From contig CAITMK010000015.1 in the NCBI GenBank assembly GCA_903893485.1, positions 1 to 39,567 of the forward strand: a DNA stretch of 39,567 nucleotides, in the 5' to 3' direction. Below, in pieces: positions 9,437 through 19,190 of the stretch. The notes under the pieces are model-generated. The model had not been told where the DNA came from, ran no database searches, and saw nothing but the letters and a program-made list of their open reading frames with translations. Source of the stretch: Candidatus Magasanikiibacteriota bacterium (GTDB lineage: Bacteria > Patescibacteriota > Patescibacteriia > Magasanikbacterales > 2-02-FULL-50-9b). Each line of letters starts with the position of its first letter. The stretch's first letter is position 1. The translations under genes were made by a program, and so were the position numbers.

Positions 9437-10435
9437 TTATTCGATACCAACAGTTACGGCGCCCGTGCAAACACCCGCGACCAAATCGGATGGAAATTGC
9501 AACCGCATATATACCGGCTTCGTTGATGAAGCGGTTGTCGTTGCAACCGGAATATTTAATCCAAATTGCAGTGGCGTGGACGATGAAAGTGCGGTCATAC
9601 TTCCGATTTCCGCGGGACTTCCTGCCGCATACACGTTTTCAGGTGGAATCGTTCCACTTGCGCCAGGCGATTCACTATCATTATGCCGACAAAGCAATGG
9701 TGATGATTCGACTGAAATATTTGTAAGCGGTGTATTTCCTGCATCTTCAACATCAAGCGTTTGCTGCGCCGAAACCGCACCGAACGCGAGCGATCCAAAT
9801 GAGACGCTATGCCCTGCCGCAATCCCCGGCGATAACGCGACTTCAAAGTGCGCTGACGTATAGCCAGGTGATGTGTTATCGGTTGAGCCAGAACTTAACA
9901 TTGTTTGATCGAGCGGCGAAACAAACGCGGTCCACTGATCCGCAGAATACTCTCCAAGGTCCGTTGCATCCGCGTTATATGCTACATTAAAATCACATTC
10001 AAAATTTGCCGTGGTGCCAGAACAATCGGTAATGGTGCAACCTTGCACAGCATAACAACTGTTACCACCATCTGAAACCATAAACCCGCTTGAAATGCAG
10101 GAGGTGACCGATCCGCGTTGCAATAAGGCATCCACGCGGCCTCCGGTGGTTACCTGAGAACATCCATCGGCATCAACAAAACTACCAACTACTTTAACCG
10201 GCACCGTGGCGCCGGCAACTAAGGTAAGCGGCGCATCAACCGACACGGTGCTTGAGGTTGCGGTGGCGACAATTGAGGTGATTGTTGCGGTTGGTGCATT
10301 GTTATTTGGATTATCAGGCGTGGTGACATCCGCATGCGTTCGAATATTTACGAAAATAAAAATCGCCAGCATGCTCGCGCCGCCTAAAAATATTTTAAAA
10401 ATGGTATGGGGGAATTCTGAAAAATTGTGTTTCAC
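9437..10435 (-). CDS. Secreted Cys-rich surface protein, paralog A
   Basis: Signal-like N-terminus ending RTHA|D; eight Cys shared with 15149-16114 and 16402-17964. GTG start, immediately downstream of the exosortase gene. Confidence 0.8.
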   Translation of the reverse strand: MKHNFSEFPHTIFKIFLGGASMLAIFIFVNIRTHADVTTPDNPNNNAPTATITSIVATATSSTVSVDAPLTLVAGATVPVKVVGSFVDADGCSQVTTGGRVDALLQRGSVTSCISSGFMVSDGGNSCYAVQGCTITDCSGTTANFECDFNVAYNADATDLGEYSADQWTAFVSPLDQTMLSSGSTDNTSPGYTSAHFEVALSPGIAAGHSVSFGSLAFGAVSAQQTLDVEDAGNTPLTNISVESSPLLCRHNDSESPGASGTIPPENVYAAGSPAEIGSMTALSSSTPLQFGLNIPVATTTASSTKPVYMRLQFPSDLVAGVCTGAVTVGIE

Positions 10436-10443
10436 ACAGTTTT

Positions 10444-11355
10444 TTACTTCTTTAGCATAACATATTTTACTGCCCAGGTCATGTACGTCATGAAAAAAAA
10501 TAGGAACAAAATAGAACCTGCAAAACTATGAAATGTGGTGACTGCAAAAGTGGGTGAAATATATGCGCCAATCAGCAATAACAAAAAAATACGTAAAAAA
10601 TTTACTATTGCGGCGCCAATGATACCGCTAAAAAATACAATCGCGATTCGCCGCGCGGACAGCTGCTTTCCCAAATTGAGCAATAAAAAATATGAGGCGA
10701 TACTGAGCATGATGAATGCGCTCATGGCGCCCAGCCCCGCACATTTTGAACCAATAAAAACGGTAAAATTATTAATCGTAATTTGAAATGTCGAGACGTT
10801 GATTACCTGTGCAATATGCAACAGCGAAAAAATATTGCCGAGCACCCATAAAATGACGCGGCTCATTTGCTGCCACGCCTGATCCATATAAAATGAAAAT
10901 AGGGTAAGCAAGATGGTGCACACCACAACAACTTGAAAAAATTCAGCTTTTTTCTTAAAAAATGAAACTGGAAAAAAATAAAGAAAAATAAAAATGGTTC
11001 GCAAACCATTCAGAAAAAATTCGAAGAAAACACGATCAACTGAATGTGCAAAAAAAGATACGCGCGTTGGAAACAGCATACAGAGTACTGCGAGGCATCC
11101 GAAGAAAAATCTTTTTTTTATTGCGATCGATTCACTTTGGTGCTTTTGCCATGTACCCCATTGCACCCCAACCATAAAAATCATCAGCGCATAAAAAAAA
11201 TAATCGATGACCGGATCGGTGGTATGAAGTGCATAGCCAAAAAAGTGCTGCGTATAGGCTGTGCGCGCGATTCCTGCCACCAAACTCACTGCCAGGGCAA
11301 CCAAAACCTTCATGCCGTCAAAATAATTTTGTTTTAAAATCTCGTTGAACTTCAT
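10444..11355 (-). CDS. Exosortase/archaeosortase family protein (membrane transpeptidase-like)
   Basis: 303 aa, polytopic; Cys205 in VFIGSKCAGLGAMSAFIML, Arg255 in AAIVNFLRIFLLLLIGAY, His276 in TTFHSFAGSILFLFFF: the Cys/Arg/His arrangement of the exosortase superfamily. Confidence 0.88.
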   Translation of the reverse strand: MKFNEILKQNYFDGMKVLVALAVSLVAGIARTAYTQHFFGYALHTTDPVIDYFFYALMIFMVGVQWGTWQKHQSESIAIKKRFFFGCLAVLCMLFPTRVSFFAHSVDRVFFEFFLNGLRTIFIFLYFFPVSFFKKKAEFFQVVVVCTILLTLFSFYMDQAWQQMSRVILWVLGNIFSLLHIAQVINVSTFQITINNFTVFIGSKCAGLGAMSAFIMLSIASYFLLLNLGKQLSARRIAIVFFSGIIGAAIVNFLRIFLLLLIGAYISPTFAVTTFHSFAGSILFLFFFMTYMTWAVKYVMLKK

Positions 11356-11382: not shown

Positions 11383-12825
11383 ATGTGGCATAAAAAGTTT
11401 GGCGTAATTTTTGTTTTTTTACTCGCACTTTTTTTAATGCCGCGACATGCCTTTGCAACCGCACCAACCTGGACTGCTTACGATGCGGGCACTGATTATT
11501 CAAGTCCTGAAGGCGTTCAAATTCGATTTAATAGTAGCACCAACGAGTTTGGATTTCTTTATTTTCAAAATGGTGCAACTTGCTGTACTTCAGATGGTTA
11601 TTTTAGATTATTTTTCTCCACTTCAACTGATGGAAGCAGTTTGAGTTCACGCACTACCGTTGAAACAATTGATACAAATGTTTGGGCCATGCAGGAATCT
11701 GCTTCAAACCTCGCGGTTTCAGAAACCGGCCAATATGTGTATCTCCGCCCGAGCGTCACACGCGGCGTTTCGGATGGTTCCTATTTTGGACAACGTCAAT
11801 CGGATGGCACGTGGGTTAATTATTCGCCATCAGGATTATCAAACGCGTTTGGGCGAGGCACCCTGTTAGATGCGTCCGGTGGAGTTTATGCATTTGCAAC
11901 TGAATATCAAGATCAAGAAAATAGCGCGAATCGCAAAATTATTTTTGCAACCTCTAACGACAACGGCATTACCTTTACGCCCGTTACAGTTGCATCAGAC
12001 CTCAGTGCGCAAGCAAGTGAAGCCGATCTTTTAAAAACCGCGTCTGGTTATGCCATTGTGTGGCTCAGCGAAGACGCTAAAATTCACATAACTTTTAGCA
12101 CCAACAATGGCGCCACCTGGTCAACACCGATTGATCATGTGGCATCAACGCTGCCGCTCGCCATGATCAGCAGCATTTCATCAGCAGTTGATACGTCAGG
12201 CAACATATGGGTGGCCTATCCGATTGCATCTGGTTCTGATGTTGGCGCCATTTCAGTTGAGCTGCGCCTATTAAAATTTCCCTCTGGCGGAACCGAGTGG
12301 AATTCCCCCGAGAGCATTGATAACGTACTTGCTGACGGTATCACGAGCTGGAATCCTGCATGGACGTCAATACAAGCCGCGGGACTTCAGTTGGTTAACG
12401 GAACCACGCCAATTATTGGCTACTACAAACTTGGATCCCAGGCGGGATTAAGTAAACCAGGATCAATTAATTATGCCCTTCGCGAACCCGGAACCGGCTG
12501 CAGCGGCACTGATGGTACAAATTTTAGATGTGGTATTATCGACTCCACTCTTACCGAAACGATCAATAGTTTTGATTCAGGATTTGCGGCGCCAATGGGA
12601 ATGGCTGTTCACGGCTCTCGCGTTGTCGTTGGATACCCGCAAATTGGAGATAACGCTCGATTTCGCGTTGCATACACTGATGTTACTCTCGATGCCAGCT
12701 CAAGCACGCCTACATCAACTAGCGGCGGTGGTATTCCAGAATTTTCAACCTATGTCTATATCGCCACCATGTGCGGTGGACTTATTTTTCTTATCAAAAA
12801 ATCAGAATCTTGGAAATCGTTATAA
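11383..12825 (+). CDS. Secreted Asp-box (BNR-like) protein with PEF-CTERM-like C-terminal sorting signal; candidate exosortase substrate
   Basis: Signal peptide MWHKKFGVIFVFLLALFLMPRHAFA; Asp-box-like FATSNDNGITFTP and FSTNNGATWSTP; C-terminus SSSTPTSTSGGGIPEFSTYVYIATMCGGLIFLIKKSESWKSL (S/T/G linker, PEF, TM, basic tail). Confidence 0.88.
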   Translation: MWHKKFGVIFVFLLALFLMPRHAFATAPTWTAYDAGTDYSSPEGVQIRFNSSTNEFGFLYFQNGATCCTSDGYFRLFFSTSTDGSSLSSRTTVETIDTNVWAMQESASNLAVSETGQYVYLRPSVTRGVSDGSYFGQRQSDGTWVNYSPSGLSNAFGRGTLLDASGGVYAFATEYQDQENSANRKIIFATSNDNGITFTPVTVASDLSAQASEADLLKTASGYAIVWLSEDAKIHITFSTNNGATWSTPIDHVASTLPLAMISSISSAVDTSGNIWVAYPIASGSDVGAISVELRLLKFPSGGTEWNSPESIDNVLADGITSWNPAWTSIQAAGLQLVNGTTPIIGYYKLGSQAGLSKPGSINYALREPGTGCSGTDGTNFRCGIIDSTLTETINSFDSGFAAPMGMAVHGSRVVVGYPQIGDNARFRVAYTDVTLDASSSTPTSTSGGGIPEFSTYVYIATMCGGLIFLIKKSESWKSL

Positions 12826-13327: not shown

Positions 13328-13672
13328 TTAATGTTGAAACTTAAAGATCGACGCGATAATAAGTCCGCCAGCAATCAAAAAAACAATCGTAAATAAAAGC
13401 CTAATCGCAAAATATATTTTCAAAAAATGATCGAACGAAAGCGCGGTCCGGCCATATCTTTTTTTGTCATGTGTACCAATTTTATCAAATGAATCCGCTA
13501 CCGAATACCGTAAGATAAACGGTACATGGCGCGGATTAATGCTGAGGGTGAATCCCGCAAGCACGGTTGCAAACAAAAAACCACACACAAAGCCAATTAA
13601 TAAATCGCTATGAAAAAAATCAATAACAAAAATTCGTGCTTCTGCTAAAAGTGGTATAATGCTGTCCAACAT
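13328..13672 (-). CDS. Small membrane protein
   Basis: Two hydrophobic segments; TAA-T-ATG junction with the PG-binding gene. Confidence 0.6.
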   Translation of the reverse strand: MLDSIIPLLAEARIFVIDFFHSDLLIGFVCGFLFATVLAGFTLSINPRHVPFILRYSVADSFDKIGTHDKKRYGRTALSFDHFLKIYFAIRLLFTIVFLIAGGLIIASIFKFQH

Positions 13673-14216
13673 GAACTCAGTATATCACAACGAAAAATAT
13701 CCTCGCCACCCGCATGAACGTGGTGCGATTATTTTTGAGCGATTTTTTTTGTGGATGCTCACGGGCGCCGCGACTTTTTTTATCCTTTGTTTACTAACCA
13801 AATTTTTTATCGTTGACGGCGGCATTATCGAAGGACCTTCCATGGAGCCGACATTTACATCAGGATCTTACTTTATAATCAATAAAACCGCATTTTATTT
13901 TGCCCCGCCGAAACGCGGCGATATTGTACAAATAATTCGTGATAATCGATTAATTATCAAGCGCATTATCGGTGTGCCGGGCGATGTAATTACCATAAAA
14001 CAAGGAGCTGTTTGGGTCAATGGCATTCGGCTGCCAGAGCCGTACCTGCCACCATTCACCGACACCTCACTTTTGGGCCAACACGGCGAAAAAGACTATA
14101 CCCTTCATGCGAAAGAATATTTTGTACTTGGTGATAATCGTATTCAAAGTTCTGATTCACGCATTTTTGGACCAATTCTTCGCAGCACGATTATCGGCAA
14201 AATTATAAAGCTTTAA
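13671..14216 (+). CDS. lepB: Signal peptidase I
   Basis: IIEGPSMEPTFTSGSYFIINK (catalytic Ser), RGDIVQI...LIIKRIIGVPGDVI (catalytic Lys), FVLGDNRIQSSDSRIFGPI. Confidence 0.96.
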   Translation: MNSVYHNEKYPRHPHERGAIIFERFFLWMLTGAATFFILCLLTKFFIVDGGIIEGPSMEPTFTSGSYFIINKTAFYFAPPKRGDIVQIIRDNRLIIKRIIGVPGDVITIKQGAVWVNGIRLPEPYLPPFTDTSLLGQHGEKDYTLHAKEYFVLGDNRIQSSDSRIFGPILRSTIIGKIIKL

Positions 14217-15135
14217 AATATCCTACAAAGTGAGTCTGAGGATCCTGAGTCGTAAAAACTGCGCGCGTATTATTTGTAACATTTAATAGTTCGTATACGC
14301 CTCGGGTTCGGAGCATAAGCGCGTTTTCCGACACCGGCCGTACTTCCGTCCAAGGCCAGACTAAGAACGTTTTCTTTACGTGCGTTGCCAGATTCTCTGC
14401 GCGGATAAATGGCCCAAATCGTGCATAATGAAATGCGTTTGGCGTTGCAACAAGCTGCTTTACTGCGGCAGTAACATAATCGCTGGAAACTGATTTTGGC
14501 GCGTCATCCCATGGATCAAATGAAAAATAATGACGCGTGGTTTGATCAGCAATTAGTAATTCTCGAGGCATCTGTTTGTTCCAAAAAGCAAGTATGTGCG
14601 GTGAAGTACTTGTTGGCGCATGTAAAATACCGGTTAGTACATCCGCGCAAGGAAATCCTGGCGCTGTTATATCCGCCACACAAGAATAATAATCATTTTT
14701 TTTGTCCGCACGAATCCCCGTTACGAGCGCGTAGGTGCCCAAAGGGTTCATACCAACTTGCGTAATTCTGCCTGGCAATTGTGAAATCGCAAACTGTTTT
14801 CCAGATACTCCGTCTAATACATACAATCGCTGTTCATTTTTTTGCGTTTCTGTTTCGCCAAAAACAGCTACCACTTGTGGCGACACAAAATTTGCCTGCC
14901 ACTGCCCGGGAAATGTTTGCGCAACTCCATCGGTGATTCTCAGCAAGGTAAGCGTTGACGATGCAGCATTAGGTGATGAATAAATCCCGATAAGCGGCGA
15001 TCGGCCGCCATCAGCCGCGGAAATTCCTGTGACGCGCGCCACATGATGCGGAATTTGAATTCCTAGTCCAAAAAATAAGGCGGCGCACAAAATAATAAAA
15101 CCACCTATGCTAATAAGTGGTTTTATATGGTTCAT
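14203..15135 (-). CDS. Membrane-anchored protein, possible beta-propeller-like ectodomain
   Basis: N-terminal TM (LISIGGFIILCAALFFGLGI) and repeated beta-rich segments; no family recognised. Confidence 0.65.
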   Translation of the reverse strand: MNHIKPLISIGGFIILCAALFFGLGIQIPHHVARVTGISAADGGRSPLIGIYSSPNAASSTLTLLRITDGVAQTFPGQWQANFVSPQVVAVFGETETQKNEQRLYVLDGVSGKQFAISQLPGRITQVGMNPLGTYALVTGIRADKKNDYYSCVADITAPGFPCADVLTGILHAPTSTSPHILAFWNKQMPRELLIADQTTRHYFSFDPWDDAPKSVSSDYVTAAVKQLVATPNAFHYARFGPFIRAENLATHVKKTFLVWPWTEVRPVSENALMLRTRGVYELLNVTNNTRAVFTTQDPQTHFVGYFKAL

Positions 15136-15148
15136 AAGTCCGCGTAAA

Positions 15149-16114
15149 TTACTCCGTGCTAAACGTGAGTGTGCCCGTACAAGTACCATTTACATCAGAT
15201 GCAGGTGTTTTTAAATTGAAGTAAGTTGTTGACGCCATGACGGTAGATGTTGCAAAACTAGAGCCAATACTAAGTCCTGTAGAAACAGCGGTGACATGAT
15301 CTGAATTAAGTGCGGTCATGCTATCGTACGAGACATTCGTTGTTGCAAATTTGATGTTCTGTACAGGAATAACGCCGGGTGTACAAGTCATATCGGTACC
15401 CGTAATTGCAACACCTTCACCTTCTTTATTGCCAGTATTTGTAATAGATAATGCAACACTGCTCGTAGTGGCATTGAGCCCCATGGATCCAAACGCAATG
15501 TCGCCACTTAAACTAATTGCAGTAAGTTGTGCAATTTCAAAGGTCCGCGGAGAAGAAAGATTCGCGGAACCACCACCTGCCCCTATCATTGTTGCGTCCT
15601 GCGTATTCACAATTGCTTTCCAAGTATCTGCTTCATATAAACTTCCGGTATTTGTTGGATCCGCATTAAACCAAACAGGAACGGAACAGTCGAACTGACC
15701 CGTGGTTCCGCTACAGCTACTCAATGAGCAACTTGTTGCGAGAAAACAATGCGCACTTTCTGGACTGCCACCGACGCAGTCAGGACTTGATCCATGATAA
15801 ATTACGCCGTCCATTCTGCCACCTGATGTTACATCGGTGCAGCCATTGTCATCACTGAAAGTTCCCTTAATATGCACGGTTGTTACGGTTCCGTCCGTCA
15901 ATGTAAGTGCTGAACCATCTGATTCAATCGTTGAACTTGTGGCATTCGTTATGTAATTGATTGTTGCAGTCGGGATTGCATTAGTTGTTGACGCAGACAC
16001 GTTTATGGTTTTGTCCGCACTGGTTTTCATGACCACGAATACCACGATCACCAATAAGGCGCCCAGGCCAAGGAGTGTCGCAGCGATCCAATGCTGTTTA
16101 ATTTCTTTGTCCAT
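15149..16114 (-). CDS. Secreted Cys-rich surface protein, paralog B
   Basis: Signal-like N-terminus ending MKTSA|D; eight-Cys pattern; C-terminal domain LTAISLSGDIAFGSMGLN...CTGTLTFSTE closely matches paralog C. Confidence 0.82.
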   Translation of the reverse strand: MDKEIKQHWIAATLLGLGALLVIVVFVVMKTSADKTINVSASTTNAIPTATINYITNATSSTIESDGSALTLTDGTVTTVHIKGTFSDDNGCTDVTSGGRMDGVIYHGSSPDCVGGSPESAHCFLATSCSLSSCSGTTGQFDCSVPVWFNADPTNTGSLYEADTWKAIVNTQDATMIGAGGGSANLSSPRTFEIAQLTAISLSGDIAFGSMGLNATTSSVALSITNTGNKEGEGVAITGTDMTCTPGVIPVQNIKFATTNVSYDSMTALNSDHVTAVSTGLSIGSSFATSTVMASTTYFNLKTPASDVNGTCTGTLTFSTE

Positions 16115-16118
16115 ATAT

Positions 16119-16352
16119 TTATTTCTTAATGATCTGGACCTCGGTCCGGACAATTGGTGGCGCGCTAATATGTTGCACCTCTGTAGAATTTTGTTGTATC
16201 GCCGGAGTATTCAAATTAGCAGCTGCAATAAATTGTGTGCGATGGCTAAGCTCATAAATTGTATAAATAGTTACGGCGCATACCGCGATCCATGCAACGA
16301 TGTATGGAATCACTGCCTCTTTCCAATTTGGACGATACAATTTTTTTGCCAT
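16119..16352 (-). CDS. Small bitopic membrane protein (77 aa)
   Basis: MAKKLYRPNWKEAVIPYIVAWIAVCAVTIYTIYELS...; AGGAAAAT before ATG; lies between paralogs B and C. Confidence 0.6.
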   Translation of the reverse strand: MAKKLYRPNWKEAVIPYIVAWIAVCAVTIYTIYELSHRTQFIAAANLNTPAIQQNSTEVQHISAPPIVRTEVQIIKK

Positions 16353-16401: not shown

Positions 16402-17964
16402 TTATTCTGTACTAAATGTTAAGGTACCAGTACAATCACCTGCAATTCCTGATGGTGGCGTATGCAAATTAAAATAGGTACTTGATGTCATGATCGTTGA
16501 GGTTGTGGCCAGCGGCGAAAGACTTAAGCCCGAACTTACCGCAGAAGCATCATCATGTAGCGACGTCATGCTATCAAACGCAACATCCGATGTTGCAAAA
16601 TGAATATTAGACGCTGAAATAGACCCTGGGGTACACGTCATACCAGCAGTTGCAATACTTACGCCTTGCCCGTGTTTATTCCCCGTATTTTCAATTAAAA
16701 TTGGAACGCTACTGGTGGTGGAATTTAAATCCATTTTGCCAAACGCAATATTACCGCTTAAGGAAATTGCGGTAAGCGAGGCGACTTCAAATGGACGCGC
16801 AGTTGATATGATCGGAGAATCATTATTCATGCTAGATTGAAGATAGGTATCAAGCGGGGCCACAACCGCATTCCACGAATCACTTTCATAATCCCCACCC
16901 GTGCCCGTTGAATCTGCATTAAACCAGACTGGTACGGTGCAATCAAACTGCCCGGTGGTTCCACTACAGCTACTAATCTGACATCTACTCCCCGTCGCAG
17001 CTGCGCAGTGACCGTTGTCCGTTGCCCCTGGAGAAAAATCCCCGCCCGAACCTGCCATAGTCATTGAATAATCATCGAGGTAAGATATAAATGCACCACC
17101 CCCACTTGGAATACCAATCGCGAGCATTTCAATTGTTCCATTTGCAGGAATTGGTAGTGTCCCCGTGAATTGAACCCATGCTCCCGAAGGACTTGGAGAC
17201 TGAATATAGTCAGCTGGATTTCCTCCAAATGCTGTTGACCATGGATTTCCCATTGATATAGAGATCCACGTGGATGACGCAAAATCATACATCTCGGTTG
17301 CAGTTGAAACAGCCCCATTCAAAAAAAACGCACCACCACTACCATTACCACTGTCTCCATTATTCGTTACCCAACCGGAAAATGTAACCGTGTCTCCTGG
17401 ATTTTTACCAGATAAATAACTACTTTCAAGTGCCAATATATCCGGTCCAGATCCTGTACCAGTTATTTTTGCAGCATAAGCGCCAGAATGAATAATGGTT
17501 GATTCACGATCCAGCGTTGGTGCACCGACCGCTACCGTTTTTGCCCAATCCGAAGGCGTCGATGCGTCTGACCAGTGCTCAAAACCACCGTCCGCTAACA
17601 GCTCCGAAGAACCTCCACCATGACCAACGCAATCAACAGTTTCTTGCGACCCATGATAAATTACCGCGAGCATCCCGACCAAATCAGCACAACCATTTAA
17701 ATCAGTGACGTTACCCTTTACATGAACCGGCGTTGCCGCACCGTCAGTAAGTGTTAAAGCGGTTCCATCTGATTCGACTGTTGAGTTTGAGTCATTAGTA
17801 ATTGAAGTAATTTCTGCGGTTGGCAACACATTAGCGGCCGATGCCGTAATCATTGCGGTTTTATCCGCGTGCGTCTTAACAACCACGAACGTGGAAACAC
17901 CGCTAATTGCAAGAAGTCCTAACACACTCAATGCAATTCCATGTTGTTTAAAACCAATACCCAT
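16402..17964 (-). CDS. Secreted Cys-rich surface protein, paralog C, with inserted CBM-like beta-sandwich
   Basis: Same signal-like N-terminus (VVVKTHA|D), eight Cys and C-terminal domain as paralog B, plus about 195 extra residues between Cys2 and Cys3. Confidence 0.85.
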   Translation of the reverse strand: MGIGFKQHGIALSVLGLLAISGVSTFVVVKTHADKTAMITASAANVLPTAEITSITNDSNSTVESDGTALTLTDGAATPVHVKGNVTDLNGCADLVGMLAVIYHGSQETVDCVGHGGGSSELLADGGFEHWSDASTPSDWAKTVAVGAPTLDRESTIIHSGAYAAKITGTGSGPDILALESSYLSGKNPGDTVTFSGWVTNNGDSGNGSGGAFFLNGAVSTATEMYDFASSTWISISMGNPWSTAFGGNPADYIQSPSPSGAWVQFTGTLPIPANGTIEMLAIGIPSGGGAFISYLDDYSMTMAGSGGDFSPGATDNGHCAAATGSRCQISSCSGTTGQFDCTVPVWFNADSTGTGGDYESDSWNAVVAPLDTYLQSSMNNDSPIISTARPFEVASLTAISLSGNIAFGKMDLNSTTSSVPILIENTGNKHGQGVSIATAGMTCTPGSISASNIHFATSDVAFDSMTSLHDDASAVSSGLSLSPLATTSTIMTSSTYFNLHTPPSGIAGDCTGTLTFSTE

Positions 17965-17966
17965 AG

Positions 17967-19190
17967 CTACCGCTTTTTGTGTTTCTTATGTTTTTTGTGT
18001 TTTGAAATATACATCCAAACAAGACCGATGCAGGCAATCAGCGCTGCAATGGCGCACACAATAAATATTGCAATTGTTATTTTGCTCATTGCCAAAGAAA
18101 ATTGCAGTATTTTTTCTGGTGTGCGACTGACACCGTATTCAAGCCACGCGTGCGCATCGTATGATCCAGAGTTTTTTGGTGCATACACGAGTGATAAGTG
18201 CCCCGAGGCGCCGCGCACTAACACTTGATTTTCAGTTCGAAGCGTATCAATAATTTTGCCGCCCTGATACAAATCAATATTGAGCAGAACCGTTGCATTG
18301 CCGGAGCCGGTATTACTCATGCCCGCATCAAAACGAATATTATTTCCCGCATCAACAGACGTTACATTTGACGTGAAAGAATCAAGCGCAACAGATTGAC
18401 TTAAGGTACCTGGTGCAAACACACGAAACGTCGCATCTTTTTTTGATGCAATTTCTTTTTGCGCATCAGTAACGCTAATACTTCCCACATACGTACCAAT
18501 CGTTGGCGCAGGATTTGGCGTTGTTTTAACCACAATAGTTTGTGTTTCAAGCGGTGGCACGGCCGTTAAGTCTGATCCATTCACGTGGGCCGTAAGCGTA
18601 TGTTTTGGATCAGTTGTGTCAGCCAGCGAAACATCGATGCCTTCTGGCAACGCGTCCACATTGCCGTTATTGGTAATCGCAATGGTGAAAACCAATGGCT
18701 GGCCAACTTCTGAATCCGTGGTATCAATACTACCAACGCTAAAATCACGCACTTGTTGATCGGTGATCACAAAATGCACGTGCCCCGTGATTGAAAGCAA
18801 TGTGGATAAACTATTCGAGCTGCCCGGCCCGGTTGGCAACTGCTCGGTAAAATGAATGACCGCATCGTGCGGGCCATTTGGTGCGGCCACTGGTGCGATA
18901 TAAAAAGTATAGGGCGTTTGCTGCTGGCCTTTTGGCAATACTAATGTTGGGGTTGGTAGCTGTAAATATTTCCCCCCTTCTCCGCCCGCGGTAATCGAAA
19001 GCGTTTCATCGTGCGATGGATTAGCGCGTGTTACCGTGATTACGCGCTTAATTTGTATACCGTTAATTACATTGGTTGCAACCACAACCCCTGGCGAAAT
19101 GCCCAGTGCAAATGCGGTGCGTGGTAATAAAAAAATTACACTAATGAGTAATAGGCTTATTGGTGTAAATTTGTTGATTTTAAAAGACAT
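17967..19190 (-). CDS. Exported multi-Ig-like protein with C-terminal TM (possible assembly chaperone/anchor)
   Basis: Signal peptide ending RTAFA; N-terminal LGISPGVVVATNVINGIQIKRVITVTRANPSHDETLSI; later Ig/CARDB-like repeats (VFTIAITNNGNVDALPEGI); C-terminal TM and KHKKHKKHKKR tail. Confidence 0.72.
   Translation of the reverse strand: MSFKINKFTPISLLLISVIFLLPRTAFALGISPGVVVATNVINGIQIKRVITVTRANPSHDETLSITAGGEGGKYLQLPTPTLVLPKGQQQTPYTFYIAPVAAPNGPHDAVIHFTEQLPTGPGSSNSLSTLLSITGHVHFVITDQQVRDFSVGSIDTTDSEVGQPLVFTIAITNNGNVDALPEGIDVSLADTTDPKHTLTAHVNGSDLTAVPPLETQTIVVKTTPNPAPTIGTYVGSISVTDAQKEIASKKDATFRVFAPGTLSQSVALDSFTSNVTSVDAGNNIRFDAGMSNTGSGNATVLLNIDLYQGGKIIDTLRTENQVLVRGASGHLSLVYAPKNSGSYDAHAWLEYGVSRTPEKILQFSLAMSKITIAIFIVCAIAALIACIGLVWMYISKHKKHKKHKKR

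Follow-up and report, generated by a model that had tools for sequence, protein, structure and literature searches.

Gene C, from a Candidatus Magasanikiibacteriota bacterium, encodes a protein in which 207 residues lie between Cys112 and Cys320, whereas the corresponding gap in the product of its tandem paralogue, gene B, contains nine (VGGSPESAH). The question raised by this locus is what the additional segment is, how it came to lie within another protein and what it may do there. The window analysed here is a whole contig of 39,567 nucleotides, belonging to a genome of 948 kb with an estimated completeness of 98.9%, whose size, gene content and roughly 1-Mb relatives point to the Patescibacteria (CPR). 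A sequence-only reading of this DNA had proposed that the segment is a carbohydrate-binding module (CBM) of the CBM_4_9 type, inserted into a loop of a parent fold, and that C is a glycan-binding variant of a surface subunit; the residue counts on which it was based, 207 and nine, were confirmed by counting the cysteines.

Architecture of gene C and its paralogues

The genes and the parts of the C protein are as follows.

16402..17964, minus strand: gene C (520 aa), beta protein, likely secreted, made of two domains plus the nested one; intact open reading frame, no internal stop
15149..16153, minus strand: gene B (334 aa), tandem paralogue of C, without the insert
9437..10435, minus strand: gene A (332 aa), paralogue more distant from C, without the insert
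17866..17964, minus strand: signal peptide or membrane helix, C residues 1-33 (helix 2-33 in the model)
17617..17865, minus strand: first part of the parent domain, C residues 34-116, including Cys92 and Cys112 (family alignment)
17629..17631, minus strand: codon of Cys112, insert flank; nearly invariant cysteine across the parent family (alignment)
17047..17610, minus strand: nested CBM-like beta-sandwich, C residues 119-306 (predicted from the fold model, Foldseek, PF02018-matching relatives and its absence from 13 family members)
17266..17289, minus strand: aromatic segment YDFASSTW, C residues 226-233 (alignment; extra beta hairpin in the model)
17005..17007, minus strand: codon of Cys320, insert flank; invariant cysteine across the parent family (alignment)
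16405..17028, minus strand: rest of the parent, C residues 313-520; the first beta domain is completed here, followed by the C-terminal one

Outside the insert, C shares 57.7% identity with B and 58.6% with its orthologue in G003, a genome of the same genus. The cysteines of C are residues 92, 112, 320, 328, 333, 342, 444 and 511, and Cys112 and Cys320 possibly pair in a disulfide. The boundaries originally proposed for the insert, 17029-17616, correspond in frame to C residues 117-312, within which residues 119-306 form the folded part, flanked on each side by Gly/Ser-rich linkers. In the full-length model, the first part of the parent contains strands 49-56, 77-87 and 95-104, the insert sits between strands 95-104 and 320-324, and residues 313-520 have pLDDT values of 70-95 in most blocks.

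Origin of the nested arrangement

The parent family was found by profile search in 39 of the 383 genomes of the class (one genome per species), often in two copies. Among these, C was the only family match split at the Cys112-Cys320 loop with up to five candidates scored per genome, a procedure in which rarer split cases may be missed. In the parent-family alignment, for which a clean sequence set was picked by test, 13 members align cleanly on either side of the C insert and none has it (0/13); they include the same-genus orthologue (L032:17419-18420). The parent fold thus occurs widely without the domain and these relatives have nothing at that position, so that the proposed nesting in a loop of the parent holds. 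The module profile, which includes C's own segment, matches C residues 119-304 (2e-54), with the parent profile matching in two halves on its flanks, at 5e-20 and 4e-59. One alignment, which combined parents and isolated domains, was rejected because the domains fell in the wrong columns, as was one further parent set, which was misaligned at the insert border.

The G003 orthologue of C is a protein of 333 aa encoded in the same gene order and without the segment. The phylogenetic tree joins C to this insert-free orthologue (support 97/95), with B outside. The segment was therefore most likely gained by C, the split between B and C having most likely come first. Two other members of the parent family have extra terminal parts, one of 493 aa with approximately 180 additional N-terminal residues (L036:8740-10221, G074) and one of 1254 aa with a long N-terminal portion rich in Pro and in beta structure (L039:13632-17396, G030), and the family therefore accepts added domains.

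Scanning genome contigs with the whole of C revealed no relative. The relatives of the module that were found occur in long proteins, next to one another or as single copies, none of them within a loop, and the papers searched contained no description of the nested architecture. The nested arrangement is a new combination of known parts.

Fold and family of the nested domain

Modelled as a separate domain with AlphaFold2, C residues 119-306 are all beta (pLDDT 83, pTM 0.83). The best solved matches of this model in Foldseek are CBM22, CBM61, CBM4 and CBM16 (E 1e-8 to 1e-5, probability 1.00), among them 4xuo (CBM22, E 1.2e-8), 2xom (CBM61), 1k42 and 2y6j (both CBM4-2) and a CBM16, and the TM-scores against solved CBMs are moderate, at about 0.5-0.6. 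Of the matched modules, CBM22 is xylan-binding and CBM61 is galactan-binding. The predicted structure is that of a CBM4/9/16/22-type beta-sandwich; the alignment behind it comprised ten sequences, including rows that match CBM_4_9, and hence the fold result is not entirely independent of the family link. The segment thus has a folded model with CBM matches, in place of predicted disorder and the lack of any CBM or jelly-roll match. In the full-length model of C, much of the parent is well predicted but the insert is not (block means of pLDDT 21-47), as would be expected with a single sequence covering the insert in that alignment.

These data bear on whether the insert might be an assembly chimera or unfolded filler. 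It is known from one assembly only and is of low confidence in the full-length model. However, the reading frame is kept at both joints, where there are flexible linkers and no long repeat at the borders, a homologous domain occurs elsewhere in the order, and the domain model is confident once relatives are aligned. Such an artefact is accordingly very improbable, and the fold and the nesting of the module, taken together, are regarded as highly likely.

By sequence, the link to CBM_4_9 runs through intermediates. PF02018 did not match the segment or gene C, even at E values up to 10, and searches of Pfam, NCBIfam and the PDB with the insert alone gave no match to a CBM family. Of the CBM_4_9-type module that had been proposed, the beta-sandwich of the CBM4/9/16/22/61 kind therefore stands, while no direct match to a CBM family was found in Pfam, NCBIfam or the PDB. 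The nearest relative of the insert (39% identity, E 5e-27) is part of a 2587-aa protein in a genome of the same order (G040, L033:10623-18386). A profile of these two sequences (A3) recovers additional copies, sometimes as tandem pairs, from giant and probably surface-located proteins throughout the phylum. Three of the relatives (L044, L048 and L050) exceed the PF02018 cut-off. A3 compared with a set including these three gave a probability of 98.4, and the insert alone scored 64.5 against the same set, compared with 20.4 or less for 100 shuffled sequences; A3 scored 11.3 against the unrelated parent family. The insert is thus homologous to CBM_4_9 member sequences, via intermediates. PDB searches with profiles of the closest relatives only, including a five-relative profile, found no CBM chain.

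The segment resembles CBM_4_9 (PF02018; families 4, 9, 16 and 22) in its NGGFE..W N-terminal layout, HSG.YA.KI core and closing iDD.S motif, in its predicted beta-sandwich fold and in having relatives, one step away, that pass the cut-off of the model. It differs in falling below the model itself, in approximately 35 extra residues that include (Y/W)(N/D)Fx4W, and in being set into a loop of a protein that is not an enzyme, instead of lying beside a glycosidase domain. The segment contains six Trp and six Tyr residues as well as this conserved aromatic segment. The motif is common to five aligned sequences (C, G040, two from G022 and one from G010) and is missing from the CBM_4_9-matching relatives; it marks a subfamily. 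In C, it is modelled as an extra hairpin (strands 106-109 and 114-117 in the numbering of the separate domain) and is a candidate for the binding face. Domains in the giant proteins (L033:10623-18386 of G040; L043, L045 and L049) belong to the same subfamily as the C module and have the aromatic segment, but they are serial or single in long proteins, whereas the C module interrupts a loop of the C/B family fold.

Two side observations concern such long proteins. The G040 protein also has seven LVIVD repeats and S74-like 'YIGIGTSSPSYKLDV' repeats, and in the same genome as C there is a weak CBM_4_9-like stretch (G000:C12:146779-147093; L055, L088) in an open frame of 2955 aa (E 2.4e-4 with PF02018).

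Domains of the same predicted fold are also found in tail fibres of Caudovirales (E down to 2e-8), where some phage tail and fibre proteins are named carbohydrate-binding ('CenC-like') and the setting is likewise one of surface recognition. The domain could have been taken from a phage tail-fibre gene, or from another surface-protein gene, and be a passenger with no settled role as yet. C alone carries it, the module has a weak match to a PHROG tail-fibre family (E 1.9e-4), and many phage tail proteins share the fold. The third-position GC of the insert (0.303) is lower than in any stretch of equal size sampled across the window from 15 genes on the minus strand (mean 0.422, sd 0.043, minimum 0.319), which hints at a later arrival, although the adjoining parent parts partly share the low value (0.345 and 0.380). 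Against a passenger, the nearest of the relatives found belongs to a giant cellular protein from a different genome of the order and not to a phage, and the core residues and the open frame have been kept, which suggests use. Unlike the tail-fibre domains, C is no virion protein and its neighbour genes are cellular. A passenger is therefore improbable, though less so than an artefact of assembly.

Putative role at the cell surface

Two further genes lie in the neighbourhood of C.

13659..14216, plus strand: signal-peptidase-I-like gene (read from the translation)
17967..19190, minus strand: companion gene; its product (407 aa) is exported and weakly matches CARDB and DUF11-type families

The N-terminal helix of C ends in THA followed by DK, which is a signal peptidase I site of the A-x-A type at which the protein would be cleaved, and the same type of ending is seen in A, B and several relatives in the family alignment. 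Based on this ending and the nearby signal-peptidase-I-like gene, export of C is likely. Genes similar to the latter lie near the parent family in L032, L036 and L037. The companion protein carries a membrane helix at its C terminus and a tail rich in Lys, and a similar neighbour gene is present in L032, L034, L035, L036, L037 and L039. Adjoining the parent family in the same six loci are genes similar to one at 14203-15189 (minus strand), which encodes a 328-aa membrane-anchored protein with no family match.

The window also encodes a membrane protein of the exosortase/archaeosortase family (10444-11355, minus strand; TIGR04178 above cut-off), the only one found in the genome. Head to head with it is the gene for a 480-aa protein (11383-12825, plus strand) whose C-terminal end, IPEFSTYVYIATMCGGLIFLIKKSESWKSL, resembles a PEF-CTERM sorting signal. 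Both genes are conserved as a pair in G003 (L032:12656-13594 and 13586-15022), suggestive of a sorting system dedicated to a single target.

The parent fold resembles donor-strand pilus subunits and TasA in its Ig-like beta domains and in the signal-peptidase-I-like gene nearby. Foldseek matched it to several FimA, FimI, PapA and TasA chains (probability 0.89-0.98), with E values of 0.02-0.09 that are not significant, and a PDB sequence search with the parent found no match. Assignment of the parent as a TasA-like or donor-strand pilus subunit thus has neither a significant structural nor a significant sequence match behind it, and the 'subunit' of the sequence-only reading is reduced to a weak lead. 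It is conceivable, though doubtful, that a CBM-like subfamily specific to the CPR and bearing the aromatic hairpin moved into a fibre subunit resembling TasA or a pilus protein, so that the filament would mix plain B with glycan-binding C for recognition of host cells.

Exported modules with a CBM-type fold most often bind polysaccharide. From the fold and the setting, binding of a glycan by the C module is slightly favoured. The main rival is that the CBM-type fold does not bind sugar and serves in protein-protein contact, or as a spacer altering the packing of C against B or against a surface-protein partner. The beta-sandwich class includes protein-binding domains, with MAM and ephrin-receptor domains among the Foldseek matches; none of the canonical ligand residues was mapped in the C module; and the tandem pairs of relatives in giant proteins are arranged as spacers would be. 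Yet most of the best structural matches are modules that bind sugars, the closest Pfam family to which the relatives lead is a carbohydrate-binding one, and the common aromatic segment would fit a binding face. A contact or spacing role is considered unlikely, though a good deal less so than a passenger domain.

Overall, glycan-mediated adhesion via C is the best explanation and a reasonably probable one. C and B would be secreted beta proteins encoded in tandem, each with two domains and with cysteines, of which C, after its split from the same-genus relative, would have received a CBM4/9-like beta-sandwich in the Cys112-Cys320 loop. The Gly/Ser-rich linkers, possibly together with the disulfide, would hold the module without disturbing the parent fold and the module would be displayed at the cell surface, where the polysaccharide that it most likely binds may be a host envelope glycan, the matrix or a self-made exopolysaccharide. 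C would then be a glycan-adhesive version of the scaffold, with B remaining plain.

The organism is probably host-dependent, and how very small bacteria of this kind attach to their hosts is largely unexplained. A module of a sugar-binding type on a conserved, uncharacterised surface protein would be a concrete candidate for host attachment that can be expressed, with paralogue B and the G003 orthologue, the same protein without the module, as natural controls. For the parent family, the arrangement in C means that the Cys112-Cys320 loop can take a whole domain.
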